Position numbers and translations under genes: made by a program. Positions 8,756-45,249 of a stretch of DNA of 50,736 nt are shown piece after piece. Source of the DNA: an uncultured Alphaproteobacteria bacterium (GTDB lineage: Bacteria; Pseudomonadota; Alphaproteobacteria; CAAHEQ01; UBA3637); assembly GCA_944392145.1 (NCBI GenBank), contig CALXVS010000010.1, positions 1-50,736 of the forward strand, in the 5' to 3' direction. The notes beneath the pieces are model-generated. The model searched no databases and was not told the DNA's origin. It was given only the letters and a program-made list of their open reading frames with translations. Position 1 is the first letter of the stretch. Each line of letters begins with the position of its first letter.

Positions 8756-8785
8756 AACGCCGGACTGAACATCCGGCGTTGATTT
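8756..8785 (+). terminator. Terminator after antirepressor A
   Basis: AACGCCGGA (8756-8764) pairs with TCCGGCGTT (8772-8780), then GATTTATTTA. The loop CTGAACA and most of the stem recur after all four paralogues, so this hairpin travels with the C-terminal cassette. Confidence 0.7.
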
Positions 8786-9193: not shown

Positions 9194-9634
9194 TTATACT
9201 AAACGTGTTTTGAAAAAGCGCTTCATGCTTTCATCTGAAATGACATCATCTTTTGTTTTATTATATGATTCAATCCATGGACTTTCAGCATGCGTCATAT
9301 CCCGCAATCTCCAAGCAGAATATTGTCCAAATTCAGCATAAATATCATCTAAAAACGACCTTATTTCACAAGGAATAGAATCAATCTTAAATCCAGGTTC
9401 AGGCATTAAACACGCTGAGCCGTTTACCTTAAATTTATGATATAACAACGGAACAACCGGACCATGTTGCCATGCCTGTAACGTTTCATCAAACAACCGC
9501 TTTCCATGCATTGCCAAATAAAAACCCTGAGCATAATAACATAATTTTTGAAGCTTCAAATTTGAAATACAATCTTCAGCTTCATGATCAACCAATGTTA
9601 AAAAATAATTGGCGACATCCATAGCCGTTACCAT
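9194..9634 (-). CDS. Panacea-domain (DUF4065/SocA-like) antitoxin
   Basis: A 146-aa protein with the Panacea signature: DVANYFLTL near the start, ISNLKLQKLCYYAQGFYLA, and AWQHGPVVPLLYHKF. Panacea proteins act as versatile antitoxins paired with varied toxins, and some are proteolytic adaptors such as Caulobacter SocA. The ATG at 9634 is preferred over the longer frame from 9727 because AAGGAG precedes it and the frame upstream covers its promoter. With 8788-9192 it forms a cargo unit with its own promoter between lysozyme and spanins. Confidence 0.85.
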   Translation of the reverse strand: MVTAMDVANYFLTLVDHEAEDCISNLKLQKLCYYAQGFYLAMHGKRLFDETLQAWQHGPVVPLLYHKFKVNGSACLMPEPGFKIDSIPCEIRSFLDDIYAEFGQYSAWRLRDMTHAESPWIESYNKTKDDVISDESMKRFFKTRLV

Positions 9635-9682
9635 ACTTGTTTTCTCCTTTTTTTGAAAGCCAAAAGATTTCGGCTTTCCTAT

Positions 9683-9711
9683 AGGATAAAACCAATTCAC
9701 GATTCTGTCAA
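9683..9711 (-). promoter_or_regulatory. Promoter of the Panacea toxin-antitoxin unit
   Basis: On the minus strand TTGACA (9711-9706), 17 bp, TATCCT (9688-9683). A hairpin GAAAGCC/GGCTTTC lies between promoter and ATG. Confidence 0.6.
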
Positions 9712-9712
9712 T

Positions 9713-9753
9713 AAAAAAACGCATCATCCTTTCCTTTCGCGTCCTGATGCGTT
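9713..9753 (-). terminator. Terminator between lysozyme and the Panacea unit
   Basis: Minus strand AACGCATCA (9753-9745) pairs with TGATGCGTT (9726-9718), then a T run (9717-9713). It isolates the Panacea unit from late transcription. Confidence 0.75.
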
Positions 9754-15739: not shown

Positions 15740-15832
15740 AAAGTTGGTTGAGGAAGGGGCTTTGACCCTAGTCAGTGTCTGTCAACCAGGTGACCGCAAG
15801 TTAGTAGACCCGCCTCTTGCGGCTTTTTATTT
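15740..15832 (+). ncRNA. Small RNA A, convergent with nuclease A
   Basis: This ~90-nt RNA has no reading frame. GTTGGTTG (15753-15760) pairs with CAACCAG (15783-15789), forming a first hairpin. A strong terminator follows: CCGCAAG (15794-15800) with CTTGCGG (15816-15822) and a T run. The T run contains the complement of the nuclease A stop codon (15827-15829). The first ~65 nt are identical to small RNA B, while the terminator stem differs. Confidence 0.75.
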
Positions 15833-16351
15833 TTCGTAATAAGCCGTCATTACAAACTGTATCCTTGATTTAAACAATTTAGGCTCTACAATAACTTTTT
15901 TTCCCTTATGTCTAATTATAAAATCTTTTTTCTCATCTTGGTAAATTTCCCCTTTCTCAATGACCTCTGTCAATGAAGAAAGTAGCTTACCCAAAGGCTG
16001 TTTTGTTTCTTTCCGACGCTTAACAATATGCTGCAGTCCCATATCATCGTTCCCCCAAATCAGGGAAATACCCCCTATGTCTTTGCGCATAAAGGCGTCT
16101 TTAACGTATCCTTGTTTTTCTTTCATTAACAAGTCAACCGCCGCTTGTCCTTTAACACCCGTGTATTCTTTGCCTAAAATATCGGCTGTCTTTGCACTGC
16201 CTTTATCAAAATGAGCTCTATCCGCTCCGCTTTCAGCAAACTTCCCGTCTTTATCCCGTTTATGCTTGCTTTCGTCCCAAGCATTTAAAGCACGCAGACC
16301 GGTATCTATCCGAATCAGGCGTTCTTTTGTGTTGATTTCAATACGTATCAT
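15827..16351 (-). CDS. Putative PBECR-like phage nuclease A
   Basis: A 174-aa protein. Residues ~28-45 (AWDESKHKRDKDGKFAESG) are the linker often found between phage head proteins and attached toxin domains. The core (GKEYTGVKGQAAVDLLMKEK, IGGISLIWGNDDMGLQHIVK) is nearly identical to 23657-24169 and to the portal C terminus; the last ~45 residues differ. The pattern with GLQHIVKRR fits the phage barnase/EndoU/colicin-type (PBECR) nuclease group, with the His as likely catalytic residue. This is by eye. It lies 3 bp after the plug gene. Confidence 0.6.
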   Translation of the reverse strand: MIRIEINTKERLIRIDTGLRALNAWDESKHKRDKDGKFAESGADRAHFDKGSAKTADILGKEYTGVKGQAAVDLLMKEKQGYVKDAFMRKDIGGISLIWGNDDMGLQHIVKRRKETKQPLGKLLSSLTEVIEKGEIYQDEKKDFIIRHKGKKVIVEPKLFKSRIQFVMTAYYEK

Positions 16352-19275: not shown

Positions 19276-20427
19276 TCAGCACACCCGTAACGCGCCGTTT
19301 GTCAGGGCGTTTAAGATGTATATGCGTTCTAAAGCCTCGTCCTTTTCATAGTTTTTATCCCCTTTCATCATGTCAACGGCAAACAACGTTTCGTTTTGCA
19401 CGGTGCGATACCGGGTTAAAACCGTTTTAAGTGCCCGCAATAGGTAAAACAAATTCAGCACCGATGTGTTTTGTGCTTTCGGTTGTTGCTTTTGAAGTCC
19501 GTAATGCAACTGTTCGGTCAGGCGCCACAGCTCCTTTTCCACCTCGGCCGGCACGACGTCGGGTTGCTTTAACGATTCGGGGATATTGTATCCAATGGGG
19601 TCAACCGTTTGTGTCACGGTGATGTCTTTTAAGGCCGAACCGATGCACGCCTTGACAATCCCGCCGATTTCAGACCGGGCTTTTTCGGACAACTTGATTT
19701 CCCGCGGTCCGGAGGGAAGACGTCGGGTGTATGAGGATACCGGAACGAGGCCAAGCTCTTGTTGCGCCGGGGAGACATAGGCGCCGGTCTTGCGGATACT
19801 TGGTAGGACTTCCGAATAGACCCAGTCAGCAAAGGCTTGCGCTTGCGGTTTGTTAGAACGGAATATCAGGCGGTAGAGATTGGGTTCGTTGATGATTGTA
19901 ATTTGCTGCATTACAGAAAAGAACATAATTTCTTGGTTTATGCTAACCATACACCCCTTCGGTGGGTTAGTGGCTCTTGTCACATACACCCACAAGTTTT
20001 CTATATCACAACGATTTTTCCCATATTTTTTAAATTCTTCTTCACGTTGTTTCTTCCACCTTTTTTCCCGTTCTTCTTGCTCTTTCTTTTCCTCCAAGTA
20101 TTTTTTGTGATTTTCTTTGATTTGTTCACTTAGTTCATTGCGACAGGATTCTATTCGTCTATATCCTTCTTTAAGATGAGTTTTATAAATGAACTTTTGG
20201 AAATCATTATAAGAGGATTCAACTTCCTTTAATTTTTTTTCTGTTTTATTCAAGTATGCCATTTTTTCTGATTTCTCTAAAGAAATTTCTTGTTCATCAT
20301 GGCAATCATCATAAAAATACGAATAATTACTCCGACTGCCAACCAATTGCTCAATTGCATCATTCCTTAGATCAGAACACGCACACAAAGTTCCCAAAAT
20401 AATAAAACACGAAACTTGCTTTAACAT
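19276..20427 (-). CDS. Chimeric moron: lipoprotein/coiled coil fused to a truncated BRO module and the shared C-terminal domain
   Basis: A 383-aa frame in three parts. Residues 1-17 are a lipoprotein signal (FIILGTLCAC, lipobox TLCAC). Residues 18-~150 are a charged coiled coil (EEKKEQEEREKRWKKQREEE). From ~175 (ITIINEPNLYRLIFRS) comes the second half of a BRO-N domain without its first ~60 residues, then the shared C-terminal domain. The antirepressor part could not reach DNA if the protein is exported. It is either a recombination relic or a new envelope protein. It has its own promoter and is bracketed by hairpins in the tail operon. Confidence 0.65.
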   Translation of the reverse strand: MLKQVSCFIILGTLCACSDLRNDAIEQLVGSRSNYSYFYDDCHDEQEISLEKSEKMAYLNKTEKKLKEVESSYNDFQKFIYKTHLKEGYRRIESCRNELSEQIKENHKKYLEEKKEQEEREKRWKKQREEEFKKYGKNRCDIENLWVYVTRATNPPKGCMVSINQEIMFFSVMQQITIINEPNLYRLIFRSNKPQAQAFADWVYSEVLPSIRKTGAYVSPAQQELGLVPVSSYTRRLPSGPREIKLSEKARSEIGGIVKACIGSALKDITVTQTVDPIGYNIPESLKQPDVVPAEVEKELWRLTEQLHYGLQKQQPKAQNTSVLNLFYLLRALKTVLTRYRTVQNETLFAVDMMKGDKNYEKDEALERIYILNALTNGALRVC

Positions 20428-23566: not shown

Positions 23567-23660
23567 AAAGTTGGTTGAGGAAGGGGCTTTGACCCTAGTC
23601 AGTGTCTGTCAACCAGGTGACCCGTCTGTTAGTAAATTTCCTCAGACGGGCTTTTTTTAT
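23567..23660 (+). ncRNA. Small RNA B, convergent with nuclease B
   Basis: The transcribed part is identical to small RNA A up to GGTGACC, then has its own terminator stem: CCCGTCTG (23621-23628) with CAGACGGG (23643-23650) and a T run. The nuclease B stop codon (23657-23659) lies in that T run. The loop between the stem arms retains TTAGTA, as in A. Confidence 0.75.
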
Positions 23661-24169
23661 GTATGATAAGCAGTAAAAACAAATTGAAATTCTTCTCCGT
23701 TCATCTTTGGTTCTATAATAGCTTTTTTCTGTTTAAAATTGATTTCAAATCTTCCCTTTTTTGCAAAAGTTAACTCCCCTTTCTCAATGACCTCTGTCAA
23801 TGAAGAAAGTAGCTTACCCAAAGGCTGTTTTGTTTCTTTCCGCCGCTTAATAATATGCTGCAATCCCATATCATCATTTCCCCAAATCAGGGAAATACCC
23901 CCTATGTCTTTGCGTATAAATGCGTCTTTAACGTATCCTTGTTTTTCTTTCATTAACAAGTCAACCGCCGCTTGTCCTTTAACCCCTGTGTATTCTTTGC
24001 CTAAAATATCGGCTATCTTTGCACTGCCTTTACCGGAAATTCCCGACTGTTTTGCAAACTTCCCGTCTTTATCTCGTTTATGCTTACTTTCCTCCCAAGC
24101 GTTCAAAGCATATATGCCGGTATCTATCCGAATCAGGCGTTCTTTTGTGTTGATTTCAATGCGTATCAT
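23657..24169 (-). CDS. Putative PBECR-like phage nuclease B
   Basis: A 170-aa paralogue of nuclease A. The N terminus (MIRIEINTKERLIRIDTG), the linker ESKHKRDKDGKFAKQSG and the core to GLQHIIKRRKETKQ are nearly the same; the last ~45 residues (LTFAKKGRFEINFKQKKAII) differ strongly. It overlaps the upstream connector gene by 14 bases, so it is translated with the head-tail operon. A toxin carried in or made with the virion is possible. The ATG at 24169 is chosen because nuclease A starts at the same residue. Confidence 0.6.
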   Translation of the reverse strand: MIRIEINTKERLIRIDTGIYALNAWEESKHKRDKDGKFAKQSGISGKGSAKIADILGKEYTGVKGQAAVDLLMKEKQGYVKDAFIRKDIGGISLIWGNDDMGLQHIIKRRKETKQPLGKLLSSLTEVIEKGELTFAKKGRFEINFKQKKAIIEPKMNGEEFQFVFTAYHT

Positions 24170-24755
24170 ACTTGATAACCTCATAAGCGATACTCTTTTT
24201 TAAATACCCCGTATCAACAAGCGGTTTAGCACTTCCTTTTTTCCGAACGGTTGAGGGGGCATTTGGGGGATCTTGAATTTCATCAATGCTTTTTGCAATG
24301 CTGGTTTGCATGGCAACCCCGACATTTTTCATGCATTTACGCAAAGACAATCCTTTTTCCATGCTGTCTTGAAGCACCTTTGCCCAGGTGGCTTCATCTT
24401 TTTGGACGGCATTACGCATAAACGGCCGGGGCGGAATAACAACATCATGCGCCGGGATGACAACATCTTGCGCAAAGTTGCTCTTTTTTTTCTGAACGAA
24501 CCGGCCATTGCGGTTAAACTGACCGTTTTTTTCGTTCAAAGACCGGTAAATTGTCCGGTGCTGCTCCGGCACATGAATTTTTGCCCCATATTCCTGGATC
24601 AGCGCATTTTTGGCAACTTCCAAGCCATTTGGATAGGCGTCCCCCTCAAAATACCCGGCCTTAACCCCTTTGACTGTTGATAATTCTTTTTTGAACCGGG
24701 CACATAACTTTTGGACCCCCTTAAGATCAACCTTGACATCAAACTTGCCCGCCAT
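24156..24755 (-). CDS. HK97-gp10-like head-tail connector
   Basis: A 199-aa protein. VKVDLKGVQKLCARFKKELS, ALIQEYGAKIHVPEQHRTIY, IPPRPFMRNAV and PLVDTGYLKKSIAYEV are the characteristic segments of gp10-type neck proteins (PRPFMR and DTGxLxxSI). The ATG at 24755 has AGGGGG upstream. It overlaps both neighbours. Confidence 0.85.
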   Translation of the reverse strand: MAGKFDVKVDLKGVQKLCARFKKELSTVKGVKAGYFEGDAYPNGLEVAKNALIQEYGAKIHVPEQHRTIYRSLNEKNGQFNRNGRFVQKKKSNFAQDVVIPAHDVVIPPRPFMRNAVQKDEATWAKVLQDSMEKGLSLRKCMKNVGVAMQTSIAKSIDEIQDPPNAPSTVRKKGSAKPLVDTGYLKKSIAYEVIKYDTH

Positions 24756-29325: not shown

Positions 29326-29413
29326 TAACCTGAAAGTGGTTGTAGAATTCGGTCTGTCAACCTTAAAGTTAGACATAGTGAACAAGTCCTCTAACGCTTT
29401 CAGGTTTATTATT
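29326..29413 (+). ncRNA. Small RNA C, convergent with the portal-nuclease gene
   Basis: Diverged in sequence but alike in layout: GGTTG pairs with CAACC (29338-29342 with 29358-29362), and the segment CTGTCAACC is kept. Here the terminal stem closes the whole RNA: AACCTGAAAG (29327-29336) pairs with CTTTCAGGTT (29397-29406), then TATTATT. The nuclease stop codon (29409-29411) sits in this tail. Confidence 0.7.
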
Positions 29414-31346
29414 CCACATAATAAGCGGTTAAAACAAAATTTATTTTTTGATTATACAATCTTGGTTCAATAACCGCTTTTTTAGATTTATATTCAATCA
29501 TAAATCTTCCTACACTACTTTCTTTAAGTTCCCCTTTTTCCACAATATCCGTCAGACTGCTTAAAAGTTTTCCAAGATTTTGATCCGTTTCTTTCCGCCG
29601 CTTAATAATATGCTGCAGGCCCATATCATCGTTCCCCCAAATCAGGGAAATACCCCCTATGTCTTTGCGCATAAAGGCGTCTTTAACGTATCCTTGTTTT
29701 TCTTTCATTAACAAGTCAACCGCCGCTTGTCCTTTAACACCCGTGTATTCTTTGCCTAAAATATCGGCTGTCTTTACACTGCCTTTATCGGAATGCGAGT
29801 CACCCGCCCCGCTTTCGGAAAACTTCCCGTCTTTATCACGCGGATGCTGTGACTCTTGCCATGCATTTTGGGCTTTCAATTTGGACGTCACCTCATCCGT
29901 GATATCGTCATAACCCAACAACCCGTCTACATCAGCGTCAATATCTATGTCGCCGATATTCAGATCTTTATCTTTCTTTAACCAGTTAAAGACGTCCTCT
30001 GTCTTGGCACCCATTTCAATCAGGGCTTTTGCCACTTCAACTTGACCTTTAAAAACCTCGGTGGTTTCTTTCTTGTTCAGTTCTTCCAGTGGTTTAAAGA
30101 TGTAATCTTTAAACTTAACAAATTTTCCGGCATCCATCCCGGCGACAACACCATACATGACCAGTAAATTGTCTTTGATAGATGTTTGAATGCGCCGCAC
30201 TTCGTCATACCAGCTTTTGCGATCCCCCTCACCGGTTGCATCCATACCTTGGGCCGATTTACCGAACAATTCCGTCATCGGAATAAAGGTTTTGGCCGCA
30301 ACAATGGCGTAGAACAACTCTACATTCTCACGCAATCCGGTTAAAGAAGTGGTTAATTGCATCACATCTTCTTCCAATGCTAACGGCGTCACCATAAAGT
30401 TATCCTGGACGGTTGACATCAGTTCCAATTGCTTCCGAAAGTTTTCGGCATTTACCGCAAAATTATTCCGATCCGTTTTCATGTAAATATAACGAAACCG
30501 GTTGATTAAATTGGCCGCCCCTTGGCTGACCAGGTTTGAATTGGCAACATCCGCCTTAATCAATTGAGTTAACGGCATGCCGAAATACATGCACAACGGC
30601 TTCATCATTGTTTCGGGGGTGTTTTGTTCAAAATGCAAAAAATGGCTGTGATGACACACACCAAGCCCGACAACATACCAACTTTTGGGTTTCATATAGT
30701 CATGTTCGGCCGGATTGATCGTATTAACCTCAACCGCTTGAACATTCACCGGATCAATATGCCGGAAGCCTTTAAACCGACGCATATCCATTTTTGATAA
30801 ATCCAAAGGCTCGGCCAGATTGTCTAATCCAAAGTCCAAGTAAATTAAACAACCGCCACTGACAAAAGAGCTGCGAACAGCGTTTATCAAATGTTCCGTT
30901 AAATGAAAAACATTTGCTTTTTTATCCAATGCACTCCTGTTAAAATCGCTCTCGTCTGACAGTATCTCCCCGCCTTTTGAAAACGGTGTTTTTGAAAGCA
31001 ATTCAAAAACTTTATTCATCAGCGGATCTTGCGCTAATGTATAACATTCCCAATAATTGACATTTTGATAATTATAATAGGCCAACTGGGCGGTTCCATA
31101 CCCACTGTTGACGGATTGCAAAGGGCTGACCCATTGGTTTTCAAGGCGCACTTTATGGGCATTATACATCTTAATGCCATATGCGGCCCCTAAATCTTTG
31201 GCCCCACCTGTTAGGCGCAATTGTGCCAAGGTAATCGGCTCTTTTACTGACAGGTCTTTTTTATCCCGCTTAAAAAAATCCGGATTAACCAACCATCTAA
31301 AAGGGCTCTTTTCCTGCCTTTTTTTAAAAAAATTTGAAAAATTCAT
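29409..31346 (-). CDS. Portal protein (DUF1073-type) with C-terminal PBECR-like nuclease domain
   Basis: A 645-aa fusion. Residues 1-~485 are a portal of the DUF1073 group (NVNYWECYTLAQDPLMNKVF, MPLTQLIKADVANSNLVSQG, FMVTPLALEEDVMQLTTSLT, IPMTELFGKSAQGMDATGEG). Then comes the linker NAWQESQHPRDKDGKFSESG and a domain nearly identical to nucleases A and B through GLQHIIKRRKE, again with a different last ~45 residues. Twelve nuclease copies could thus be carried per virion. The ATG at 31346 overlaps the TerL stop (TGATG). Confidence 0.85.
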   Translation of the reverse strand: MNFSNFFKKRQEKSPFRWLVNPDFFKRDKKDLSVKEPITLAQLRLTGGAKDLGAAYGIKMYNAHKVRLENQWVSPLQSVNSGYGTAQLAYYNYQNVNYWECYTLAQDPLMNKVFELLSKTPFSKGGEILSDESDFNRSALDKKANVFHLTEHLINAVRSSFVSGGCLIYLDFGLDNLAEPLDLSKMDMRRFKGFRHIDPVNVQAVEVNTINPAEHDYMKPKSWYVVGLGVCHHSHFLHFEQNTPETMMKPLCMYFGMPLTQLIKADVANSNLVSQGAANLINRFRYIYMKTDRNNFAVNAENFRKQLELMSTVQDNFMVTPLALEEDVMQLTTSLTGLRENVELFYAIVAAKTFIPMTELFGKSAQGMDATGEGDRKSWYDEVRRIQTSIKDNLLVMYGVVAGMDAGKFVKFKDYIFKPLEELNKKETTEVFKGQVEVAKALIEMGAKTEDVFNWLKKDKDLNIGDIDIDADVDGLLGYDDITDEVTSKLKAQNAWQESQHPRDKDGKFSESGAGDSHSDKGSVKTADILGKEYTGVKGQAAVDLLMKEKQGYVKDAFMRKDIGGISLIWGNDDMGLQHIIKRRKETDQNLGKLLSSLTDIVEKGELKESSVGRFMIEYKSKKAVIEPRLYNQKINFVLTAYYVE

Positions 31347-32776
31347 CACCGCAAAAATATCCTTCTTGCTCTGTCCCAATCGGGGCTTAAATTCCGTCGG
31401 GCCACTTTAAGCCCGTAAATTAAACAATCTACCAAATCATCGTGTTCATCCTGCTTACCACCGGTGAAAGCCTCTGTTTGTTTTATAAACTCAGGTATCC
31501 ACGACGCACTTTCAGGTATGTATACATATCCGCTTTCCAAATCGGCCGATATTTCCAGAAATCTTGTATACTTGTCCGCAACCTGCTCTTTGGATAGGAT
31601 TTTGTTGTAAAAGGTCGGCTGTAATTCTTTGATCGGAAGCCCCTCTTCCCGTAACTGTTGGATCAGGGAAATCCCGGATCCTTTATTTTCAATATAAACG
31701 GATCCAATCGTATTACACACACCGTATTTTGAAACGCAGTCGTGGTAAAATGCCGTTAAGTCATTCCTTAAAGCCGGAAAGTTGACTTTTTTACAATAGG
31801 CCTCCAGCAAATACCGCTCTTTTCCCTTTATCCCAAACAGCACAAAAGCCGAATTATCGGCCGATTTCTTTTCCGAAAACGCCGTATCGGCAACAATGAA
31901 CAAAATATCAAACTTATCCGGGGCAGATAAATAACGCCGGAAATGCTCTGTTTTTATCAGGTTGCCGCCTTGAATAATCGGGTTTTGCTGATAAAGCGCC
32001 TGAAAATTCGTATTCCCCAATGCCTTTTCCTGCTCACGCAAAAAGTGAATGTCACGAAATTCAGGGAACAACGCGTTGCCGTTACTATCTATGGCCGGAT
32101 GACGACTGGAAATAACCTTATCCCGATAAAATGAATCCGCCTTTAGCATGCCGATTAAATCATCTGTATGCCAGCGTGAATGCAGGACCAAAACCATTGT
32201 GTCGTTCTGCCGCCGCGACATAATATCCCCCCGAAACCTGTTTTCAACCTTTGCCCGAATGGTCGGGGAAAGCGCATCCTCCGCGTTGCGGTAGGGGTCA
32301 TCAATGATGGATATGTTGGACGGATACCCGGTGTTTCCCTCCCCCATCAAACGATAGTCAATCTGCCCGCCCCCTTTAAACCAAACAGATTCAGAGGTAA
32401 ACCGTTTTATAACATTGCCAAACACCGCTTGATAACGGTCACTTTTCAATATTCCCAAAACCTCGGATTGTGTTTTTTCTCTTAAATCGTCTGAAGACGT
32501 ATAAAAGTTAAATTTTAAGCCTCCATGCAATCCTATCAGCCAGGAAGTAAATATCCGCAGCTTTGTTGACTTACCATGCTGCACCGGTTCTTCACTTGTC
32601 GCTATGGGGCGTTCCCCTTTTAAAAACCTGAAATAAAGCTCATACTGGAAAAAATCACAAAGCTCTTCTTCCCATTTGCCTGTTTTAAATCCATCGGCGC
32701 CGCGCAGGTCTTCGTTAATGTAAAGATAGAAACTGTAAAAATCTGTTTGCAGATCCTTACGTTCGCTTTCTTTCAT
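31346..32776 (-). CDS. terL: Terminase large subunit
   Basis: A 476-aa DNA-packaging motor. The ATPase part has a Walker A-like PVQHGKST near residue 66 and Walker B ISIIDDPY. The RNase H-like nuclease part has FIVADTAFSEKK, VYIENKGSG and the terminal DEHDDLVDCL acidic pair. It cuts concatemers and pumps DNA through the portal. I start at 32776 (GGAG upstream), overlapping TerS by 20 bases; the longer frame lies inside terS. Confidence 0.9.
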   Translation of the reverse strand: MKESERKDLQTDFYSFYLYINEDLRGADGFKTGKWEEELCDFFQYELYFRFLKGERPIATSEEPVQHGKSTKLRIFTSWLIGLHGGLKFNFYTSSDDLREKTQSEVLGILKSDRYQAVFGNVIKRFTSESVWFKGGGQIDYRLMGEGNTGYPSNISIIDDPYRNAEDALSPTIRAKVENRFRGDIMSRRQNDTMVLVLHSRWHTDDLIGMLKADSFYRDKVISSRHPAIDSNGNALFPEFRDIHFLREQEKALGNTNFQALYQQNPIIQGGNLIKTEHFRRYLSAPDKFDILFIVADTAFSEKKSADNSAFVLFGIKGKERYLLEAYCKKVNFPALRNDLTAFYHDCVSKYGVCNTIGSVYIENKGSGISLIQQLREEGLPIKELQPTFYNKILSKEQVADKYTRFLEISADLESGYVYIPESASWIPEFIKQTEAFTGGKQDEHDDLVDCLIYGLKVARRNLSPDWDRARRIFLR

Positions 32777-36013: not shown

Positions 36014-36077
36014 TTTTTACAATTTTTAAAAATATATAACAACATTTTTTTTCTTTACTTAATTGTCTTTTTACAAT
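36014..36077. promoter_or_regulatory. Candidate repressor operators between Cro-like and CI genes
   Basis: TTTTTACAAT is present at 36014-36023 and 36068-36077, the second overlapping the CI -10 box. The reverse form ATTGTAAAAA and a near copy AATGTAAAAA occur at 38894-38916 in front of another early promoter. Confidence 0.45.
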
Positions 36078-36082
36078 ATAAT
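36054..36082 (+). promoter_or_regulatory. CI repressor promoter
   Basis: TTTACT (36054-36059), 17 bp, TATAAT (36077-36082), with AAAGGAGG just before the ATG at 36102. Confidence 0.65.
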
Positions 36083-36101
36083 ATCAAAAAAAGGAGGTTT
36101 C

Positions 36102-36752
36102 ATGACAACACCTGACGATATAAGACAACACGTAAATAACCTTTTGCTTCAAAAGGGAATCAGTCTTAATTCTGCCTCTTTAATGGTGGGAAAAGACCAA
36201 ACTTATCTGTTTCAATATGTTCACAGAAAAACGCCCAAGCGATTAAAAGAAGATGTGCGTCAAAAACTGGCAGAAATCTTAAATGTTTCAGAACAAGAAC
36301 TGACCGACTTAACATTAAACGAGAAACCGATCGGACCCCTTGTCAAAATAGATGTTTTAGATGCGGTTGCTTGTTGCGGTAACGGTATTGAAAATTTTTC
36401 GGAAAACGTGATTGGACAACACATGATGACGCTTCCGGCTTTACGCGAATTTACGTCATCCGCCCCGGAAAACATAAAAATTATCAAAGCAATCGGCGAT
36501 TCAATGATCCCAACCATCAATTCGGGGGACTTGGTCTGGATTGATGTATCCGAAAAAACGCCCTCCAGTGACGGATTATATTTGCTGTGCATTGGGCGCG
36601 ATCTGATGATTAAACGTATACAAATCAATCCGTTTAATAACTCCGCTACTGTCAAGTCTGACAACCCGCGTTACGCCGTTTTTGAAAAAGAAAACTTTGC
36701 CGACATTCAAGTCATGGGAAAAGTCATTTACCACATCCAACGGGTGGGGTGA
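36102..36752 (+). CDS. CI-type phage repressor with LexA-like S24 peptidase domain
   Basis: A 216-aa repressor. Residues ~8-65 are the DNA-binding helix-turn-helix domain (LLQKGISLNSASLMVGKDQT). Residues ~85-216 are a LexA-like autoprotease: likely cleavage at Cys-Gly in AVACCGNG, catalytic Ser in GDSMIPTINSGD near residue 133 and Lys in LMIKRI near 170. It should keep the prophage silent and self-cleave on RecA activation. It heads an operon with the next HTH gene. Confidence 0.9.
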   Translation: MTTPDDIRQHVNNLLLQKGISLNSASLMVGKDQTYLFQYVHRKTPKRLKEDVRQKLAEILNVSEQELTDLTLNEKPIGPLVKIDVLDAVACCGNGIENFSENVIGQHMMTLPALREFTSSAPENIKIIKAIGDSMIPTINSGDLVWIDVSEKTPSSDGLYLLCIGRDLMIKRIQINPFNNSATVKSDNPRYAVFEKENFADIQVMGKVIYHIQRVG

Positions 36753-37093
36753 TGCATAACAAACTAAAAGACTTTTTAAAACAAAATAACATCAAACAAA
36801 TTCAGGTCGCTCATAACTTGGGTATGAAACAGGCAACAGTTAATCATTATTTAAATGGGCGTCGCCACATCACAACGGCATTCCTAAACAGGTTTTGTGC
36901 CGCTTTTAATATTGAACCGAATACGTTTTTTTCAAATAAACCTCTGAAAAACCCTGATTCTTCAAAACTTGAAGTTCAAAAGCAACTTTGTTTGATAGAA
37001 AAACAACTTAATCGTGTCACCCAAGAACTGCTTGAAATCCAAAAAAATATGTGTAATCTTTCCGTCGCCATCAGCAGCTATCGTAAAGAGTAA
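36752..37093 (+). CDS. XRE-family helix-turn-helix protein
   Basis: A 113-aa protein: an N-terminal XRE/Cro-like helix-turn-helix (KQIQVAHNLGMKQATVNHYL, NGRRHIT) and a C-terminal coiled coil (KQLCLIEKQLNRVTQELLEI) probably for dimerisation. The ATG overlaps the CI stop (TGATG), so both are made from one transcript. Likely a second lysogeny regulator. A GTG three bases earlier is an alternative start. Confidence 0.8.
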   Translation: MHNKLKDFLKQNNIKQIQVAHNLGMKQATVNHYLNGRRHITTAFLNRFCAAFNIEPNTFFSNKPLKNPDSSKLEVQKQLCLIEKQLNRVTQELLEIQKNMCNLSVAISSYRKE

Positions 37094-37147: not shown

Positions 37148-37169
37148 ATGATTGTTTAAAGGAGATCAT

Positions 37170-37709
37170 ATGTATTCTGCCGACAAAGTTTTGCAAATAA
37201 TCACTTATCTGTTATCGCTTAATAACGGACGAATGGATTTATTGAAGCTGATGAAAGAACTTTATTTAATTGACCGCAGATCAATTGAAGAACGCGATTC
37301 TTCCCTATCCGGCGATGTATTTTGCAGTATGCCTCATGGTCCGGTTTTAAGCCAAACACTCAACATGTTGACAATGCTCCCTGATTATCCGTCTTGGTTT
37401 GAGTATTTAGATTCATCCCGAAAAATGTATTATCCTGACATTGTTTTAAAAAAACAACTCCCGGAGCTGGACCGCCTAAGCGAAAAAGATAAATCCTACA
37501 TTCGTGAAATTTCTGATAAATTTAAAGATTATACCGAATTTCAGATAGAGGATTACACGCATAAACTGCCCGAATGGGTGGATCCCAACGGCAGCAGCCG
37601 CAAAATCCGCTTTCAAGATGTCATGCGCGCTCTTCAAAAAAGTGATACGGAAATCTTGGCCGCAAAAAAAGAATATGATGCCTTAAACGAGCTATGTCAT
37701 GCGGGTTAA
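37170..37709 (+). CDS. Panacea-domain-type antitoxin, second copy
   Basis: A 179-aa protein with a Panacea pattern: ADKVLQIITYLLSLNNGRMD, LLKLMKELYLIDRRSIEERD and FCSMPHGPVLSQTLNML (the M-x-HGPV motif), followed by a helical C-terminal extension (KDYTEFQIEDYTHKLPEW). It heads a two-gene unit with its own promoter just behind the repressor genes, so it can be expressed in the lysogen. AAAGGAG precedes the ATG. Confidence 0.8.
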   Translation: MYSADKVLQIITYLLSLNNGRMDLLKLMKELYLIDRRSIEERDSSLSGDVFCSMPHGPVLSQTLNMLTMLPDYPSWFEYLDSSRKMYYPDIVLKKQLPELDRLSEKDKSYIREISDKFKDYTEFQIEDYTHKLPEWVDPNGSSRKIRFQDVMRALQKSDTEILAAKKEYDALNELCHAG

Positions 37710-39445: not shown

Positions 39446-39475
39446 TTGACAATAAGCACCAAATGTGATTATAAT
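39446..39475 (+). promoter_or_regulatory. Promoter of antirepressor leader 2
   Basis: TTGACA (39446-39451), 18 bp, TATAAT (39470-39475). Confidence 0.8.
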
Positions 39476-39481: not shown

Positions 39482-39670
39482 AAGGCTAAACACCTTATTA
39501 CAAGCGGACTGTCCGCCCCGAAAGATTTGCGGTTATTTTTGTATCCGATGAATGTCGGGGGTGCAGAGAATAAAAGAGGATTCGTCCGAATAATCTCGCT
39601 CGTCTTGTATCGAGTGTTTAGCCCCCGGCGCCTGACCGGTTCAGGCCTTCTAAACAAAGGATACAAGAAA
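39482..39670 (+). ncRNA. Structured 5' leader RNA 2 (c4-like)
   Basis: Hairpin 1 (TAAGG 39481-39485 with CCTTA 39493-39497) exposes CTAAACA. GTGTTTAGCC (39614-39623) is the exact complement of GGCTAAACAC (39484-39493) and can also pair with CTAAACA (39650-39656) beside the ribosome site. TCTTGTATC (39603-39611) and TTGTATCC (39539-39546) each match the ribosome-site sequence GGATACAAGA (39659-39668). The roles match those in leaders 1 and 3. Confidence 0.65.
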
Positions 39671-40480
39671 ATGCAAGAATTAGTCAGCATTATCAATAAT
39701 CAAATAAAAACAACATCAAATATCATTGCGTCAACATTTGGCAAAGCGCATAAGGATGTTTTGCGCCGTATTGAATCGTTGGAAATCCCTGATGATTGGC
39801 ATCAGCGCAATTTTACGCCCATGCTTAAAACCGTTGATATTGGCGGCGGAGCAACTCGCCACGACAAAGCTTATGAAATCACCCGTGACGGATTTACGTT
39901 GCTTGCCATGGGCTTCACCGGCAAAAAGGCAATGGAATTTAAAATCAAATACATTGATGCCTTTAATAAAATGGAAGCGGCTTTAAAGGGACAAAACGAC
40001 CTTGGCCTTGTTCCCGTGTCCTCTTACACGCGCCGACTCCCGTCCGGCCCACGGGAAATTAAGTTGTCCGACAAAGCCCGCTCCGAAATCGGCGGGATTG
40101 TCAAGGCATGCATCGGTTCGGCCTTAAAAGACATCACCGTAACACAAACGGTTGACCCCATCGGATACAACATCCCCGAATCGTTAAAGCAACCCGATGT
40201 CGTGCCGGCCGAGGTGGAAAAGGAGCTGTGGCGCTTGACCGAACAGTTGCATTACGGACTTCAAAAGCAACAACCGAAAGCGCAAAACACATCGGTGTTG
40301 AATTTGTTTTACCTGCTCCGGGCACTTAAAACGGTTTTAACCCGGTATCGCACCGTGCAAAACGAAACCTTGTTTGCTGTTGACATGATGAAAGGGGATA
40401 AAAACTATGAGAAGGACGAGGCTTTAGAACGTATATACATCTTAAACGCCCTGACAAACGGCGCGTTACGGGTGTGCTGA
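39671..40480 (+). CDS. Rha-family regulator B with shared C-terminal domain
   Basis: A 269-aa protein. Residues 1-~108 are a Rha domain (TTSNIIASTFGKAHKDVLRR, AYEITRDGFTLLAMGFTGKK, AMEFKIKYIDAFNKME), found in phage regulators that interfere with lysogeny. From ~110 it carries the shared C-terminal domain, almost identical at DNA level to that of the BRO protein at 42518. It is preceded by a long RNA leader, with ribosome site AAAGGA. The hairpin CCGGACTGAACATCCGG follows the stop. Confidence 0.85.
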   Translation: MQELVSIINNQIKTTSNIIASTFGKAHKDVLRRIESLEIPDDWHQRNFTPMLKTVDIGGGATRHDKAYEITRDGFTLLAMGFTGKKAMEFKIKYIDAFNKMEAALKGQNDLGLVPVSSYTRRLPSGPREIKLSDKARSEIGGIVKACIGSALKDITVTQTVDPIGYNIPESLKQPDVVPAEVEKELWRLTEQLHYGLQKQQPKAQNTSVLNLFYLLRALKTVLTRYRTVQNETLFAVDMMKGDKNYEKDEALERIYILNALTNGALRVC

Positions 40481-40525: not shown

Positions 40526-40945
40526 ATGAACTTGTCAAAATCATATCTTTTGGAGCGCTTTGCCGGGAATGAGGCCATCTTAAATCGCCTTGACAAAATC
40601 ACCGGCGACACGGTGTGTGTCAAACTCATGACACCGGAAGCGGCCAAAACAGACGAACAAAACCGCCTGTTTCATGCGCTGTTAAATGTGTTTTGGGATT
40701 CGGGGTGTTCGTCATTTATGGACATGGACGACATGCGGCTTTATTACAAGCGCACTGCCGGCCTGATCCATAAAAACAAATACGGCTTTTTGGTGGAATC
40801 CTCTTGGGGAACGGCTAAAAAAGAGCAAGCCGGCCGGGCGATTGATGCCCTGCTACACGACATGGACTTGTCCGGCGTTATCGGATCATCCATGGGAAAA
40901 AAGTATCAAGACATCTTAACCCATATCAGAAAGGAAACCATATGA
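40526..40945 (+). CDS. Recombination-region phage protein (NinB-like, tentative)
   Basis: A 139-aa protein (VKLMTPEAAKTDEQNRLFHA, LLNVFWDSGCSSFMDM, DMRLYYKRTAGLIHKNKYGF). The arrangement R/T-x-x-QN-x-LFHALL recalls NinB/ORF-type recombination mediators, and the gene is in the recombination operon, but the match is weak. AAAGGA precedes the ATG. It overlaps the next small gene by four bases (ATGA). Confidence 0.55.
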   Translation: MNLSKSYLLERFAGNEAILNRLDKITGDTVCVKLMTPEAAKTDEQNRLFHALLNVFWDSGCSSFMDMDDMRLYYKRTAGLIHKNKYGFLVESSWGTAKKEQAGRAIDALLHDMDLSGVIGSSMGKKYQDILTHIRKETI

Positions 40946-41061
40946 CAAATAAAGATTTTTTTGAAGAAATCCTGGCCGGATTGGTTATTATAACATTAGT
41001 GTTATCCCTTATCTTTATGGTGACCATATCCGCCGCCATAGATCCCGCGATTGGAGGATAA
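40942..41061 (+). CDS. Small single-pass membrane protein, 39 aa
   Basis: A short frame coupled to the preceding gene through an ATGA overlap. After MTNKDFFEE comes one transmembrane helix (LAGLVIITLVLSLIFMVTIS) and a short end. It stops one base before the Rad52 gene start. Phage recombination operons often include such small membrane proteins; the function is unknown. AAAGGA precedes the ATG. Confidence 0.65.
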   Translation: MTNKDFFEEILAGLVIITLVLSLIFMVTISAAIDPAIGG

Positions 41062-41062
41062 G

Positions 41063-41710
41063 ATGAGCAAAGACACCCTTATTCGCAAACTGGATCAACC
41101 CCTTTCCCCGTCACGGGTTAAGTTTCGGGAAAAAAGCAAGACGCAACTGTCCTATTTATCCGGAGCAGATGTGGAACGGGCGGCAAATACCATTTTCAAA
41201 CACGCTTGGTCCAGTGAAACCACCCAACTTGTCAAACTTTACGAGCGTGCCTATTCCAAAACTAAAACAAACGGGACAACCGTTGATATGGTTGAGGTTG
41301 CCTATATGGCCAAGGTCCGCGTTTTAGTGGACATCAATGGTGTTTCGGTTGTCCGGGAGGGATGCGGCGCCGGCAACGGTCAATCATCGGCCCTGAACCC
41401 GTTTGACGCCCACGAGCTGGCCATTAAAGAAGCCGAAACGGACGCCCGTAAACGCGCCCTTAAAACCTTTGGTGACCAATTCGGCTTATCACTTTATGAA
41501 AAAGAGATCAATCTGGCGCATGAATACGCCGATGCGCAAAAGTTTGATATTGATTATGTTGATTTGACGCGTAAAATCGCCACAGAAACAAGTGATGCTG
41601 AATTGCGTAACCTGTATCGTGATTATGACGGACCGTTTAAGGAAGAGGTTTTGGCGCACATTATGGTTCGGCGGAAAGAGCTATACCGGCAAACCGGAGG
41701 CAACAAATGA
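41063..41710 (+). CDS. Rad52-family single-strand annealing protein
   Basis: A 215-aa protein of the Rad52/Rad22 fold: TQLSYLSGADVERAANTIFK, VAYMAKVRVLVDINGVSVVR, EGCGAGNGQ and AHELAIKEAETDARKRALKT plus FGDQFGLSLY are family signatures. It should anneal ends produced by the adjacent exonuclease. The ATG at 41063 has GGAGG upstream. It overlaps the exonuclease gene by four bases. Confidence 0.92.
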   Translation: MSKDTLIRKLDQPLSPSRVKFREKSKTQLSYLSGADVERAANTIFKHAWSSETTQLVKLYERAYSKTKTNGTTVDMVEVAYMAKVRVLVDINGVSVVREGCGAGNGQSSALNPFDAHELAIKEAETDARKRALKTFGDQFGLSLYEKEINLAHEYADAQKFDIDYVDLTRKIATETSDAELRNLYRDYDGPFKEEVLAHIMVRRKELYRQTGGNK

Positions 41711-42342
41711 TTATTCACACAATGCCGCAGCGCAGCCCGGAATGGTATGCCGTTCGGTTTGGGAAAATCACCGGCTCAACCTTTTATCAATTCATGGGAA
41801 CGGGCAAAACGGTTGAAGACCGCATTTTTGAAAAAGCGGCCGAACATTTAACGCATCAAGCCGCGGTTGACAGTTTTGAATCAATAGACACGGAACGGGG
41901 CAAAACCCTGGAAGATGAGGCCGCCTTTTTATATTCGGTTATGACAGGGCGTGACGTTAAGCAGGTCGGCTTTATTGAGTATAATGCTTATGCGGGATGT
42001 TCTCCAGACGGCCTTGTCGCCGATGACGGCATGATTGAAACCAAATGCCCCCGGCAAGCCGGCCATTTAAAAACCGTTATCAACGGCTTTATCAAACCGG
42101 AATATCGTTGGCAAATGCAATACAACTTGTTCATCGCAGACCGGAAATGGTGCGACTTTGTGAGTTACTGCAAGCCGTTCGGCAAGCCTCACATCATTCG
42201 GGTGGACCGCGATCCGGCATGCTCGGCCCGTATTGCCGAAAAACTGGAAGAATTAAGCGGCCGGATTCAAGAAATTATCAACATGTATAACGAAAGGAGA
42301 AAAAAACTTGTTGACAACATCAAATCATGTATGGTATATTGA
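41707..42342 (+). CDS. YqaJ/lambda-Exo-type alkaline exonuclease
   Basis: A 211-aa 5'-3' exonuclease. QRSPEWYAVRFGKITGS is the entry motif, GCSPDGLVADDGMIETKCP carries the catalytic Asp and Glu-x-Lys, and WQMQYNLFIADRKWCDFVSY is the conserved end of the core. With Rad52 it forms a two-gene recombination system. Its last ~11 codons contain the promoter for leader 3. Confidence 0.95.
   Translation: MIIHTMPQRSPEWYAVRFGKITGSTFYQFMGTGKTVEDRIFEKAAEHLTHQAAVDSFESIDTERGKTLEDEAAFLYSVMTGRDVKQVGFIEYNAYAGCSPDGLVADDGMIETKCPRQAGHLKTVINGFIKPEYRWQMQYNLFIADRKWCDFVSYCKPFGKPHIIRVDRDPACSARIAEKLEELSGRIQEIINMYNERRKKLVDNIKSCMVY
42311..42340 (+). promoter_or_regulatory. Promoter of antirepressor leader 3
   Basis: TTGACA (42311-42316), 18 bp, TATATT (42335-42340), embedded in the 3' end of the exonuclease gene. 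Confidence 0.8.
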
Positions 42343-42346: not shown

Positions 42347-42517
42347 CTAAACATCAACGGCGGTATTCGCCCCTGTCAGTCTGGCGACTTTTTTATGCCC
42401 AGTTTATGGGGGATGAGAACCGAAAATATATTGAATATCGGTCAGCGTCCGTTGACGTTTAGTGAGTCCCCCACCTCTCATTGTAAAAGGTGGCTTCTAA
42501 AAATCAACGGAGTTACC
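42347..42517 (+). ncRNA. Structured 5' leader RNA 3 (c4-like)
   Basis: The clearest of the three. CTAAACATCAACGG (42347-42360) near the RNA start and CTAAAAATCAACGG (42497-42510) at the ribosome site differ by one base. CCGTTGACGTTTAG (42449-42462) pairs with the first in 13 of 14 positions and with the second in 12 of 14. GGGGG (42408-42412) and CCCCC (42468-42472) can also pair. The leader thus holds a mimic of its own translation start region. Confidence 0.7.
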
Positions 42518-43339
42518 ATGCATAAAGCATTAACTATATTTAATTATCAAAACAATCAAATCCGCACCAAGTTAATTAACAACGAACCTTATTTTTGTGG
42601 TTTGGATGTTTGCAAAATCTTGGGCATTAAAAACAACCGAGATACTATTACCAGATTACACGATGGCGTCGTTATTGCCGACACCACCGATTCTTTAGGC
42701 AGGCAACAAAGCGTTTCGTATATTAACGAGCCAAATCTTTATAAAGTAGCCTTTCAATCGCGTAAACCAACGGCTGAACCATTTGTCAATTGGGTATGCA
42801 AAGAAGTCCTACCAAGTATCCGCAAGACGGGAGCCTATGTCACACCGGCGCAACAGGAGCTGGGCCTTGTTCCGGTGTCTTCTTACACCCGCCGTCTCCC
42901 CTCCGGCCCGAGAGAAATAAAACTCTCCGACAAAGCCCGGTCGGAAATCGGCGGGATTGTCAAGGCGTGCATCGGTTCGGCCTTAAAAGACATCACCGTA
43001 ACACAAACGGTTGACCCCATCGGATACAACATCCCCGAATCGTTAAAGCAACCCGATGTCGTGCCGGCCGAGGTGGAAAAGGAGCTGTGGCGCTTGACCG
43101 AACAGTTGCATTACGGACTTCAAAAGCAACAACCGAAAGCGCAAAACACATCGGTGTTGAATTTGTTTTACCTGCTCCGGGCACTTAAAACGGTTTTAAC
43201 CCGGTATCGCACCGTGCAAAACGAAACCTTGTTTGCTGTTGACATGATGAAAGGGGATAAAAACTATGAGAAGGACGAGGCTTTAGAACGTATATACATC
43301 TTAAACGCCCTGACAAACGGCGCGTTACGGGTGTGCTGA
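42518..43339 (+). CDS. BRO-family antirepressor C with shared C-terminal domain
   Basis: A 273-aa protein. Residues 1-~110 are a full BRO-N domain (IRTKLINNEPYFCGLDVCKI, LGIKNNRDTITRL, SYINEPNLYKVAFQSRKPTA, FVNWVCKEVLPSIRKTGAY). From ~115 it has the shared C-terminal domain. The second half of its BRO domain resembles the truncated copy at 19276-20427. Likely a DNA-binding antirepressor; the RNA leader controls translation. ACGGAG is the ribosome site. Confidence 0.85.
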   Translation: MHKALTIFNYQNNQIRTKLINNEPYFCGLDVCKILGIKNNRDTITRLHDGVVIADTTDSLGRQQSVSYINEPNLYKVAFQSRKPTAEPFVNWVCKEVLPSIRKTGAYVTPAQQELGLVPVSSYTRRLPSGPREIKLSDKARSEIGGIVKACIGSALKDITVTQTVDPIGYNIPESLKQPDVVPAEVEKELWRLTEQLHYGLQKQQPKAQNTSVLNLFYLLRALKTVLTRYRTVQNETLFAVDMMKGDKNYEKDEALERIYILNALTNGALRVC

Positions 43340-43344
43340 CAACA

Positions 43345-43367
43345 CCGCCGGACTGAACATCCGGCAC
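43345..43367 (+). terminator. Conserved post-stop hairpin after BRO protein C
   Basis: GCCGGA (43347-43352) pairs with TCCGGC (43360-43365) around CTGAACA. It lacks a T run, so it may stabilise or process the RNA more than terminate. Confidence 0.5.
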
Positions 43368-43538: not shown

Positions 43539-43858
43539 CTGACTTTTTAATCACATTGTCTGAGATTGCACAGACATTACGATATGAAGGGGATAAGGCC
43601 GAATTACACGCCCGCAAATGGCTTTATAAACACGGCCTAAAACAATTTGCCACAGGTAAGTATGTAAGGAAGCAAGTAGAAAATATATTGGAAGCAAAGG
43701 GTAAAAAATGCTACATTACAGACAGCGCGGTAAAACATGGCACGTCCGAGGCAGTATTCGCGTGGGAAAACGCACCATCAAAATCCCCGAAAGATCTACT
43801 GGGTTTATTAAACTTAAAGATGCAAGAGAGTATGGAAGCAAACTTGAAACGGATATAA
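43535..43858 (+). CDS. Excisionase-like protein
   Basis: A 107-aa frame. The first ~58 residues (FLITLSEIAQTLRYEGDKAE, KWLYKHGLKQFATGKYVRKQ) look like a winged-helix excisionase that directs integrase toward excision. The remaining part overlaps the start of the integrase gene by 150 bases in another frame and is not obviously conserved. AGGAGGAG precedes the ATG. Confidence 0.65.
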   Translation: MTDFLITLSEIAQTLRYEGDKAELHARKWLYKHGLKQFATGKYVRKQVENILEAKGKKCYITDSAVKHGTSEAVFAWENAPSKSPKDLLGLLNLKMQESMEANLKRI

Positions 43859-44736
43859 GAGAAAACACCCTCTATCCTGAACAGGATAAAAGCCAAAAGA
43901 CAACCTTTGACGATTGTCTGTGCATACACCTGAATAAAAAAAGATTAAAACCTGCTGAAATCCAAAAGATAAAAATCCTTTTACCGAACTTTCAAGGTGT
44001 GTGTGTATCCGAAATAAAGGATGCATGGAATAGATTTTTGGCTAAAAAAAAGCACCTTGCACCAGCTACAATCAACCGTTATGCAAACACAATTAAAAGT
44101 ATAATTAAGAGTGGCGGTGAAGAAATAAACATAAAAGCCCCCCAAATTCAACATTTATCTGTCAAAAATCAGGTGGTTTTCCTTTTACCGGAGCAGATCA
44201 GACCCCTTTTAATCGGTTGTTATTCGGTTCACGCAAAGCCTATCTTTACCGTTTATGCCTATCAAGGATTACGCGAACAAGAAAATTTACAGTTGAAATG
44301 GGAGGATGTAGATTTAAAACGAGCTGTTCTGTTTATCCGAACATCTAAAAACGGGGAGTCGCGACAAATCCCTATGCACAAAAATGTGTGGTGGATTTTG
44401 ACAAGACACTGGATAAGATCGGGAAAACCCATCACCGGGAATGTGTGGCTGAATAGTAAGGGGCAACCCTACAAAGACACCCGGCACACGGGATGTGGCG
44501 GCAGCCCCGTCAGAAAAGCGCACACGCTTGCGCTTAAAAGATTAAAAGAGCAGCACGGTATAGAAATCAAAATGCGTGTCCACGACTGGCGACACGATTG
44601 GGCGTCCCGCATGGTTATGGCTGGCGTAGATTTATTGACCGTTCAAAAGCTAGGTGGGTGGAAATCGCTTGATATGGTTAAACGTTACGCCACATTTTCT
44701 GCGCGCCACGAGATTGATGCTATCAATAAAATTTAA
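43708..44736 (+). CDS. int: Tyrosine-type phage integrase
   Basis: A 342-aa recombinase. The N-terminal arm-binding region begins LHYRQRGKTWHVRGSIRVGK. Catalytic residues: Arg in AYQGLREQENLQLKW (about 186), the HDWRHDWAS box (His and Arg, about 291-294) and Tyr in MVKRYATFS (about 328). It integrates the phage into tRNA-Val, next to attR. AAGGG precedes the ATG. Confidence 0.95.
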   Translation: MLHYRQRGKTWHVRGSIRVGKRTIKIPERSTGFIKLKDAREYGSKLETDIRENTLYPEQDKSQKTTFDDCLCIHLNKKRLKPAEIQKIKILLPNFQGVCVSEIKDAWNRFLAKKKHLAPATINRYANTIKSIIKSGGEEINIKAPQIQHLSVKNQVVFLLPEQIRPLLIGCYSVHAKPIFTVYAYQGLREQENLQLKWEDVDLKRAVLFIRTSKNGESRQIPMHKNVWWILTRHWIRSGKPITGNVWLNSKGQPYKDTRHTGCGGSPVRKAHTLALKRLKEQHGIEIKMRVHDWRHDWASRMVMAGVDLLTVQKLGGWKSLDMVKRYATFSARHEIDAINKI

Positions 44737-44815: not shown

Positions 44816-44843
44816 ACCTTCACACGGTAGGGGCCGCAGGTTC
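44816..44843 (+). other. attR core
   Basis: 28 bp identical to attL 6309-6336, ending at GGTTC of the tRNA T arm. The remaining tRNA 3' end is not adjacent; it follows after 113 bp. Confidence 0.9.
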
Positions 44844-44956
44844 GAACAAGCCGCAAGGCCGGCGGGAGACGGCCGGTTTTAATGCATTAAAATGCGGCGC
44901 GTTAATGTCCCGCAACGCGGGACAGCCCTTTAGGGTGAGCATTATATAATGCGAAT

Positions 44957-44976
44957 AATCCCTGCCACACCCACCA
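44957..44976 (+). pseudogene. tRNA-Val 3' fragment left at attR
   Basis: The T-arm 3' side, acceptor strand and CCA are identical to those of the intact tRNA, but are separated from the att core by a 113-bp insert within the T loop. Confidence 0.85.
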
Positions 44977-44986
44977 ATAAAAAAAG

Positions 44987-45010
44987 GCCGGTTTATCCGG
45001 CTTTTTTTAT
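44987..45010 (+). terminator. Original tRNA-Val terminator
   Basis: GCCGG (44987-44991) pairs with CCGGC (44997-45001), then a T run. It is repeated in the second unit near 45198-45221. Confidence 0.8.
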
Positions 45011-45249
45011 TGGTCTTGGATGTGCCGGATTGAACCTGCGGACAAAGCAGGTTCGAACAAGCCGCAAGGCCGGCGGGAGACGGCCGGTTTTAATGCATTA
45101 AAATGCGGCGCGTTAATGTCCCGCAACGCGGGACAGCCCTTTAGGGTGAGCATTATATAATGCGAATAATCCCTGCCACACCCACCAATAAAAAAAGGCC
45201 GGTTTATCCGGCTTTTTTTATTGGTCTTGGATGTGCCGGATTGAACCTG

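Follow-up and report, generated by a model that had tools for sequence, protein, structure and literature searches.

The question raised by this locus is why a single prophage should carry four genes whose products share one C-terminal domain (C-domain) and begin with four different N-terminal modules (N-modules). The window, by which we mean the whole stretch of DNA analysed here (50,736 nt), corresponds to a complete contig from a genome of 1.45 Mb, and it holds a prophage of 38.5 kb inserted at a tRNA-Val gene. An earlier note on this DNA had described the C-domain as a constant part, present four times behind exchangeable front ends, with gene conversion acting on two of its copies. The carriers of the common domain are called c8, c19, c39 and c42 here, after their positions at 8.3, 19.3, 40.0 and 42.9 kb.

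Results

Table 1. Features of the prophage that bear on the four C-domain genes (SD, Shine-Dalgarno sequence; RBS, ribosome-binding site)
Feature	Coordinates	Strand	Description
Prophage extent	6309-44843	n/a	28-bp direct repeat at 6309-6336 (inside tRNA-Val) and 44816-44843
Promoter-like site, c8	7707-7735	+	TTGACA-17-TATAGT; 11/12 consensus; 213 nt upstream of ATG
Leader RNA element, c8	7839-7903	+	sRNA-Xcc1/C4-like; second hairpin antisense to c8 RBS
c8	7948-8751	+	Unnamed Rha/BRO-like N-module (to ~8262); C-domain 8272-8748
Post-stop hairpin and terminator, c8	8755-8781	+	10-bp stem, -17.6 kcal/mol; equalled by 0/200 shuffles; terminator scan
c19	19276-20427	-	Lipoprotein signal and coil; last half of BRO-N (~19756-19911); C-domain 19279-19755
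CI-like repressor	36063-36752	+	Peptidase_S24 over cutoff, HTH weak (Pfam); presumed antirepressor target
Promoter-like site, c39	39446-39475	+	TTGACA-18-TATAAT; 12/12 consensus; 196 nt upstream of ATG
Leader RNA element, c39	39554-39629	+	sRNA-Xcc1-like, antisense to c39 RBS; RF02221 match extends to 39637
c39	39671-40480	+	Rha N-module; C-domain 40001-40477; true start 39671, not 39401 (start and SD)
Gene between c39 and c42	40526-40945	+	No Pfam match
Rad52/22-family annealing protein	41051-41710	+	Pfam PF04098; between c39 and c42
YqaJ exonuclease	41707-42342	+	Pfam PF09588; between c39 and c42
Promoter-like site, c42	42311-42340	+	TTGACA-18-TATATT; 11/12 consensus; 178 nt upstream of ATG
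Leader RNA element, c42	42406-42476	+	Antisense to c42 RBS
c42	42518-43339	+	BRO-N module; C-domain 42860-43336
Integrase	43708-44736		Adjoins right-hand copy (44816-44843) of the 28-bp tRNA repeat

Four front ends on one conserved domain

The domain was found in copies of 477 nt (159 aa) at all four places where the earlier note had put it, and a search of the whole host assembly returned these same four, all inside the prophage. The note's claim that four different front ends are joined to it is borne out. Phage_pRha is recognised over the Pfam cutoff in c39 (91 bits, 9e-26) and Bro-N in c42 (70 bits, 3e-19); the module of c8 resembles Rha and Bro-N below cutoff only (19.8 and 18.2 bits), and its relatives in other genomes end in other C-termini. 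PHROGs labels for the N-modules read anti-repressor or Rha-like regulator, which denote predicted activity only. A whole N-module precedes the linker junction in three of the four genes. The exception is c19, which sits in the tail operon and in which a truncated Bro-N, still over cutoff at 45 bits, is fused in frame to a lipoprotein part with neither a viral relative nor a PHROG found for it. The covariance models R1 and R2 described below found no leader RNA for this gene, which has in addition only half of BRO-N; its role as a regulator is doubtful, and we take it for a degraded or redirected copy.

The DNA repeats extend over 514-601 nt, with 91-96% identity between inverted pairs, and run from a 5' boundary inside the linker (QND/QQE-LGLVP) that follows the N-module to a 3' boundary just past the post-stop hairpin. 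That hairpin as a shared functional end was considered and rejected, as it makes a good terminator in the c8 copy only; in c19, c39 and c42 it is weak, with 5 to 46 of 200 shuffles folding as well. A diversity-generating reading of the 3' hairpin was also rejected, the differences between copies being silent and of all kinds rather than adenine-specific. At the protein level the four C-domains vary at 2 of 159 positions, 24 (E/D) and 151 (M/L), and 40 of the 42 variable nucleotide sites are silent. Over codons 1-45, dS is 0.51-0.62 in five of the six pairs (0.145 for c8/c19) against a dN of 0-0.02, and dN/dS is about 0.02 across the diverged copies. Given that nearly all variable sites are silent and that dS is so high relative to dN, the C-domain is subject to strong purifying selection in no fewer than three diverged lineages; so much silent change beneath a constant protein shows that selection, and not homogenisation alone, has acted.

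Conversion is nonetheless part of the history of the 40.0- and 42.9-kb pair, as the earlier note had supposed without allowing for this selection. The two copies agree at 461 of 477 nt, with all 16 differences in nt 1-108 and none in nt 109-477; the chance of such clustering, which leaves the last 369 nt identical, is about 5e-11, and nt 109-477 read as a conversion tract. This pair had been singled out as almost identical, which is true of its last part in full, but c8 and c19 are closer overall (9 differences against 16). The linkers group c8 with c39 (QND) and c19 with c42 (QQE), and the domain bodies group c8 with c19 and c39 with c42; since these groupings conflict, the genes are mosaics. 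We conclude that the copies are kept alike by purifying selection together with conversion.

The profile search that had been proposed for the C-domain recovered no known family in Pfam, PHROGs or NCBIfam, where matches were at chance level only, and the reading of it as a known domain is rejected on the strength of these libraries. It had no match among PDB sequences or, at E<=1, among 50,697 phage and 72,556 plasmid records, and it was not found in the viral contigs. Scans with Pfam and PHROGs did not find KilAC within it, and hhalign against the P22_AR_C set returned a probability of 0.2%. Among 385 genomes of the class, 14 match the domain at E<=0.1, the host genome included, and two of the others were judged real. 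The sole full-length relative found, in genome G207, has 36% identity over C-domain residues 22-152, whilst the match in G325 (L035, 1435-1878) comprises residues 4-43 alone, at 58% identity, on a different phage protein. The part recurring there is the motif RxLPSGxxEIxLSEKAxxEIGGIVK, from the first 40 residues of the domain, and these first ~40 residues may be a functional motif of their own. The G207 relative (locus L052; CASFRQ010000111.1, an uncultured alphaproteobacterium) is the tail of a BRO-N protein encoded between recT plus a PDDEXK nuclease and an integrase; c42, similarly, has the Rad52-type and YqaJ pair on one side and the integrase on the other. Because the L052 relative is a BRO-N gene in a like neighbourhood, c42 probably stands at the ancestral locus and is the ancestral copy. 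AlphaFold predictions, one for full-length c42 and one for the domain alone, are helical in the C-terminal part, with mean pLDDT values (54 and 50) too uncertain to use.

Other parts of the prophage merit a brief description. A PBECR1 nuclease domain occurs three times at 81-88% DNA identity (15827-16351, 23657-24184 and within the portal gene at 29409-31379, all on the minus strand), with two copies standing alone and the third forming the C-terminal tail of the portal protein; it is a second 3' cassette within the same prophage. In a related viral contig (L025) the leader motif RDKDGKF is the same as at the PBECR1 copies and the C-termini differ. Two genes (9194-9727, minus; 37152-37709, plus) carry the SocA/Panacea domain typical of antitoxin-like modules. 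An HTH protein is encoded at 36749-37093. To the right of attR lies a perfect tandem repeat of 203 nt (44836-45249), each copy of which includes 22 bp from the 3' end of tRNA-Val, and which looks like leftovers of repeated integration.

Leader RNAs complementary to their own ribosome sites

Near-consensus promoter-like sites, identified by consensus scan, lie upstream of c8, c39 and c42, and each of these genes is preceded by a leader RNA element ending 41-44 nt before its start codon. The earlier note had mentioned neither these sites and leader RNAs nor the probable ancestral position of c42. The elements fold as closed units and show the sRNA-Xcc1 layout of outer stem, first hairpin with an AATA...GAATA motif, and second hairpin. 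When scored with the sRNA-Xcc1 model RF02221 (gathering 53 bits), all window elements fall below gathering, with 48.8 bits (E 6e-8) for c39, 17 bits for c42 and no match in the c8 leader; C4 (RF01695) and c4-2 (RF02944) have no match at E<=10 in the three leaders. The covariance model R1 (11 elements, c8 excluded and c42 included) has three matches in the window and all three are the leaders, c8 scoring 44.3 bits and c42, itself in the model, 35.8 bits. The model R2 (15 elements, all from outside the window and L052) has just two matches in the window at E<=1, both of them leaders: c39 at 46.6 bits (E 7e-9) and c8 at 36.6 bits (E 2e-6). It misses the c42 element and detects the leader of the BRO gene in L052 (27.7 bits), and 11 of the 16 pairs in its alignment have changes on both sides that preserve pairing.

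In each window leader, two blocks around the second hairpin show complementarity to a pair of blocks on either side of the SD of the leader's own gene. Measured against 300 dinucleotide-preserving shuffles per unit, the duplex between leader and own RBS has a z of -3.8 for c8, -3.5 for c39, -5.1 for c42 and -3.7 for L052, with no shuffle as good in any of the four. All six cross pairs within the window are weaker than the pairs of leader and own SD. A similar pattern is seen in genome G093, where four paralogous units have exact loop/SD matches of 6-7 nt that differ between units, and matches of at most 5 nt to other targets. Viral units gave an RNA-SD duplex z below -2 in 10 of 15 cases; for two of them, L009_7411 and L010_9853, pairing with the own target is no better than with the sister target.

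Only shuffle-corrected values count here, because raw duplex energies as low as -40 arise between one element and unrelated start sites. The duplex tests took in 63 of about 90 class-wide matches, lower-scoring ones being excluded, and five others (the three window leaders, L052 and L079); 22 of the 68 elements were set aside for having no start codon 20-65 nt downstream, L106 was excluded because a contig end truncates it, and the start codons used were picked by script and uncurated. Antirepressor-type units have a z below -2 in six of ten cases and not in the other four, and the complementarity is weak in non-antirepressor units with an sRNA-Xcc1 element (mean z -0.55; 4 of 36 below -2). 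The wider idea that all sRNA-Xcc1 elements are antisense to the following gene's ribosome site was consequently dropped: a permutation across loci, in which base composition was uncontrolled, gave 0/20000, and under the shuffle control it is the antirepressor units and a few others that stand out.

The same design at other loci

Viral BRO-N loci fetched by protein similarity only have an element over gathering directly upstream in 10 of 16 cases (RF02221 in nine, C4 in one), a figure that does not represent 16 independent cases, as it includes near-duplicate BRO units (L017/L024; L012/L013; L009/L010/L011/L023). One further locus (L016) has a sub-threshold element, and none was found in L015 and L018-L021. 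All 13 RF02221 matches over gathering here have a BRO-N or KilA-N gene next downstream, and of the three C4 matches two lie before BRO-N genes and one before an AntA gene; since both directly precede BRO-N-type genes, C4 and sRNA-Xcc1 occupy the same slot. Eight terminase-derived viral loci (L026-L033) contained no element match. Genes with the c8-type module, again fetched by protein only, have RF02221 or c4-2 just upstream in 5 of 10 cases at E<=0.1, two of these being over gathering. Among 318 genomes of the class, RF02221 matches 39 at E<=1e-3 and five over gathering, and five of the nine over-gathering elements precede antirepressor-type genes. sRNA-Xcc1 elements also precede many non-antirepressor genes. 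Genomes G135 and G331 (L112-L134) each carry 12-13 sRNA-Xcc1-like elements, many of them ahead of XRE-type regulators or of small genes belonging to a single family. A stand-alone sRNA-Xcc1-like element of 32.7 bits lies outside the prophage on another host contig (L079; C18, 15728-15811), with no gene of >=60 aa starting just downstream, and its RNA could act on messengers of other phages.

The idea that front ends are exchanged before an unvarying C-terminal domain proved right, and other phages follow the same plan with another C-domain. In locus L014 three units (KilA-N, KilA-N and Bro-N) each end in Pfam P22_AR_C; between two of these C-domains, identity is 96% at the protein level and 94% at the DNA level over 357 nt. 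As the L014 units share a constant part with no detectable relation to the window C-domain, the architecture recurs there independently. The reverse exchange is seen between L010 and L011, whose BRO-N modules are 100% identical over 117 residues and whose C-domains are unrelated, one being 97% identical to that of the L009 KilA-N protein and the other 92% to that of the L023 AntA protein. In the sister prophages L010, L011 and L023 the module junction is a LALPEP linker.

Discussion

We read the window, with moderate confidence, as an array of orthogonally silenced modular antirepressors that share one common effector domain. This reading leans on the precedent of C4, which is reported as an antisense RNA to the ribosome-site region of ant (PMC12197685) and, acting in trans, as the basis of P1/P7 heteroimmunity (PMC8546580, PMC12197685), and on reports that place sRNA-Xcc1 before symE in integron cassettes (PMC12444791) and list it close to C4 in Xylella genomes (PMC12189769). 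The four genes would be modular phage antirepressors, of which c8, c39 and c42 form complete units of promoter, structured sRNA-Xcc1/C4-type leader RNA and a gene joining an exchangeable N-module to the C-domain, with the fourth, c19, degraded or redirected. In the lysogen each leader RNA would pair with the SD region of its own messenger and keep that antirepressor off, as the complementarity suggests; the sequence fits action in cis and in trans alike. Should one unit escape, whether through induction or because the unit of an incoming phage is unmatched by the resident RNAs, the shared C-domain would act on one partner for all units, for which the CI-type repressor is the likeliest candidate. 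The earlier note had the front end choose the target and the constant part bind such a partner, a division of labour that the proteins may follow. Since the RNAs do not fit each other's targets, each unit would represent a separate immunity specificity, as c4 does in P1 and P7. What the sequence itself establishes is the repeats, the selection, the promoter-like sites and the RNA elements with their complementarity; that the RNAs silence, act in trans and set immunity specificity, and that the CI-like repressor is the target, is what we infer for this array. Its C-domain probably spread to the other front ends from the BRO gene beside the recombination genes.

Other explanations need to be weighed against this one. 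The genes may be modular antirepressors whose leaders act in cis only, as an attenuator or riboswitch-like fold onto their own SD, with no immunity specificity in trans. Every element does lie 20-60 nt upstream of its own target and the whole c8 leader folds with its SD paired; however, the elements have their own outer stem, like the 77-base c4 RNA that is reported to act in trans (PMC8546580, PMC12197685), and the host has a stand-alone element on another contig, and we consider restriction to cis unlikely. A different account would treat the repeats as recombination by-products, the phage-encoded Rad52/YqaJ pair having copied a recombination-prone 3' segment behind several of the phage's genes, where it would serve no shared role. 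It would accommodate the conversion tract, the position of c39 and c42 on either side of the recombination genes, the accidental look of the lipoprotein chimera and the threefold occurrence of PBECR1, but it sits poorly with the very low dN/dS over diverged copies, with linker junctions that follow whole N-modules in most of the genes and with the like sharing of P22_AR_C in L014, and in our view it is very unlikely.

It is also conceivable that the proteins are DNA-binding regulators or host-takeover proteins, in which the C-domain oligomerises and the leaders restrain toxic genes. Rha, KilA and Bro have been described as putative DNA-binding domains, toxicity is reported for some Ant-domain proteins (PMC6145125, PMC2701414), and the presence of sRNA-Xcc1 elements before non-antirepressor genes would be in line with this. 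Set against these points, the described silencer of an antirepressor, C4, is found at this same position ahead of BRO-N and AntA genes, and the parallel units bear a domain named after P22 Ant, such that a regulatory or takeover role of this kind seems improbable.

There is also a broader proposition, for which we find the case evenly balanced: that sRNA-Xcc1 RNAs play in phages the part that C4 plays, each silencing one antirepressor by covering its ribosome site, and that some prophages stack mutually blind units on one constant effector domain. This would amount to combinatorial heteroimmunity, with RNA specificity, N-module and C-module each exchanged independently of the other two. The sRNA-Xcc1 family would then gain a testable mechanism, where the available text of published accounts locates it before symE or within genomic islands, with no mechanism shown; its position upstream of symE in integron cassettes has been described as 'suggesting a divergent regulatory mechanism' (PMC12444791). 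Our literature search found no paper mentioning both 'sRNA-Xcc1' and 'antirepressor'. Shuffled multi-gene antirepressor sets would be explained as well: the sharing of antirepressor domains has so far been described as shuffling, with no reason given for several per phage, and antisense RNAs blind to one another's targets, combined with a common effector, would supply one. RNA models could then locate antirepressors of unknown sequence.

Comparison with known systems

The window leaders share their RNA fold and consensus with sRNA-Xcc1 (RF02221), but the published descriptions, in the parts available, present a virulence-linked, trans-acting sRNA (PMC2996969, PMC12444791, PMC12189769) and do not include pairing to the next gene, whereas the window elements precede antirepressors and are SD-complementary. 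The immI c4 system of P1 and P7 is alike in placing a small structured RNA, unit-specific and reportedly complementary around the RBS, upstream of an antirepressor gene. It differs in that the window RNAs are RF02221-like and not C4 by covariance model, and that the window has three units with different N-modules and one common C-domain in one prophage, with trans action only proposed. In phage phiCDKH01 two putative KilAC antirepressor genes, 79% identical, lie in one phage under its main repressor (PMC11172241), and the available text of that report makes no mention of an antisense leader. IsrK of Gifsy-1, upstream of antQ, is likewise a prophage small RNA tied to the expression of a neighbouring prophage regulator (PMC12197685); as reported there, it differs in activating an antiterminator gene, with no shared effector domain. 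P22_AR_C (PF10548) offers a parallel to the protein design, since in L014 and L009 it is the fixed C-terminal domain that follows different N-modules of a single phage, although it has no detectable relation to the window C-domain. Finally, the shuffling of BRO-N, KilA-N, Rha and KilA-C also involves N-modules, such as Rha for Bro, that swap before a common type of C-domain (PMC6145125, citing Iyer et al. 2002); the exchange reported there is between phages, whereas the window holds four near-identical DNA copies of one domain in a single prophage, accompanied by leader RNAs.
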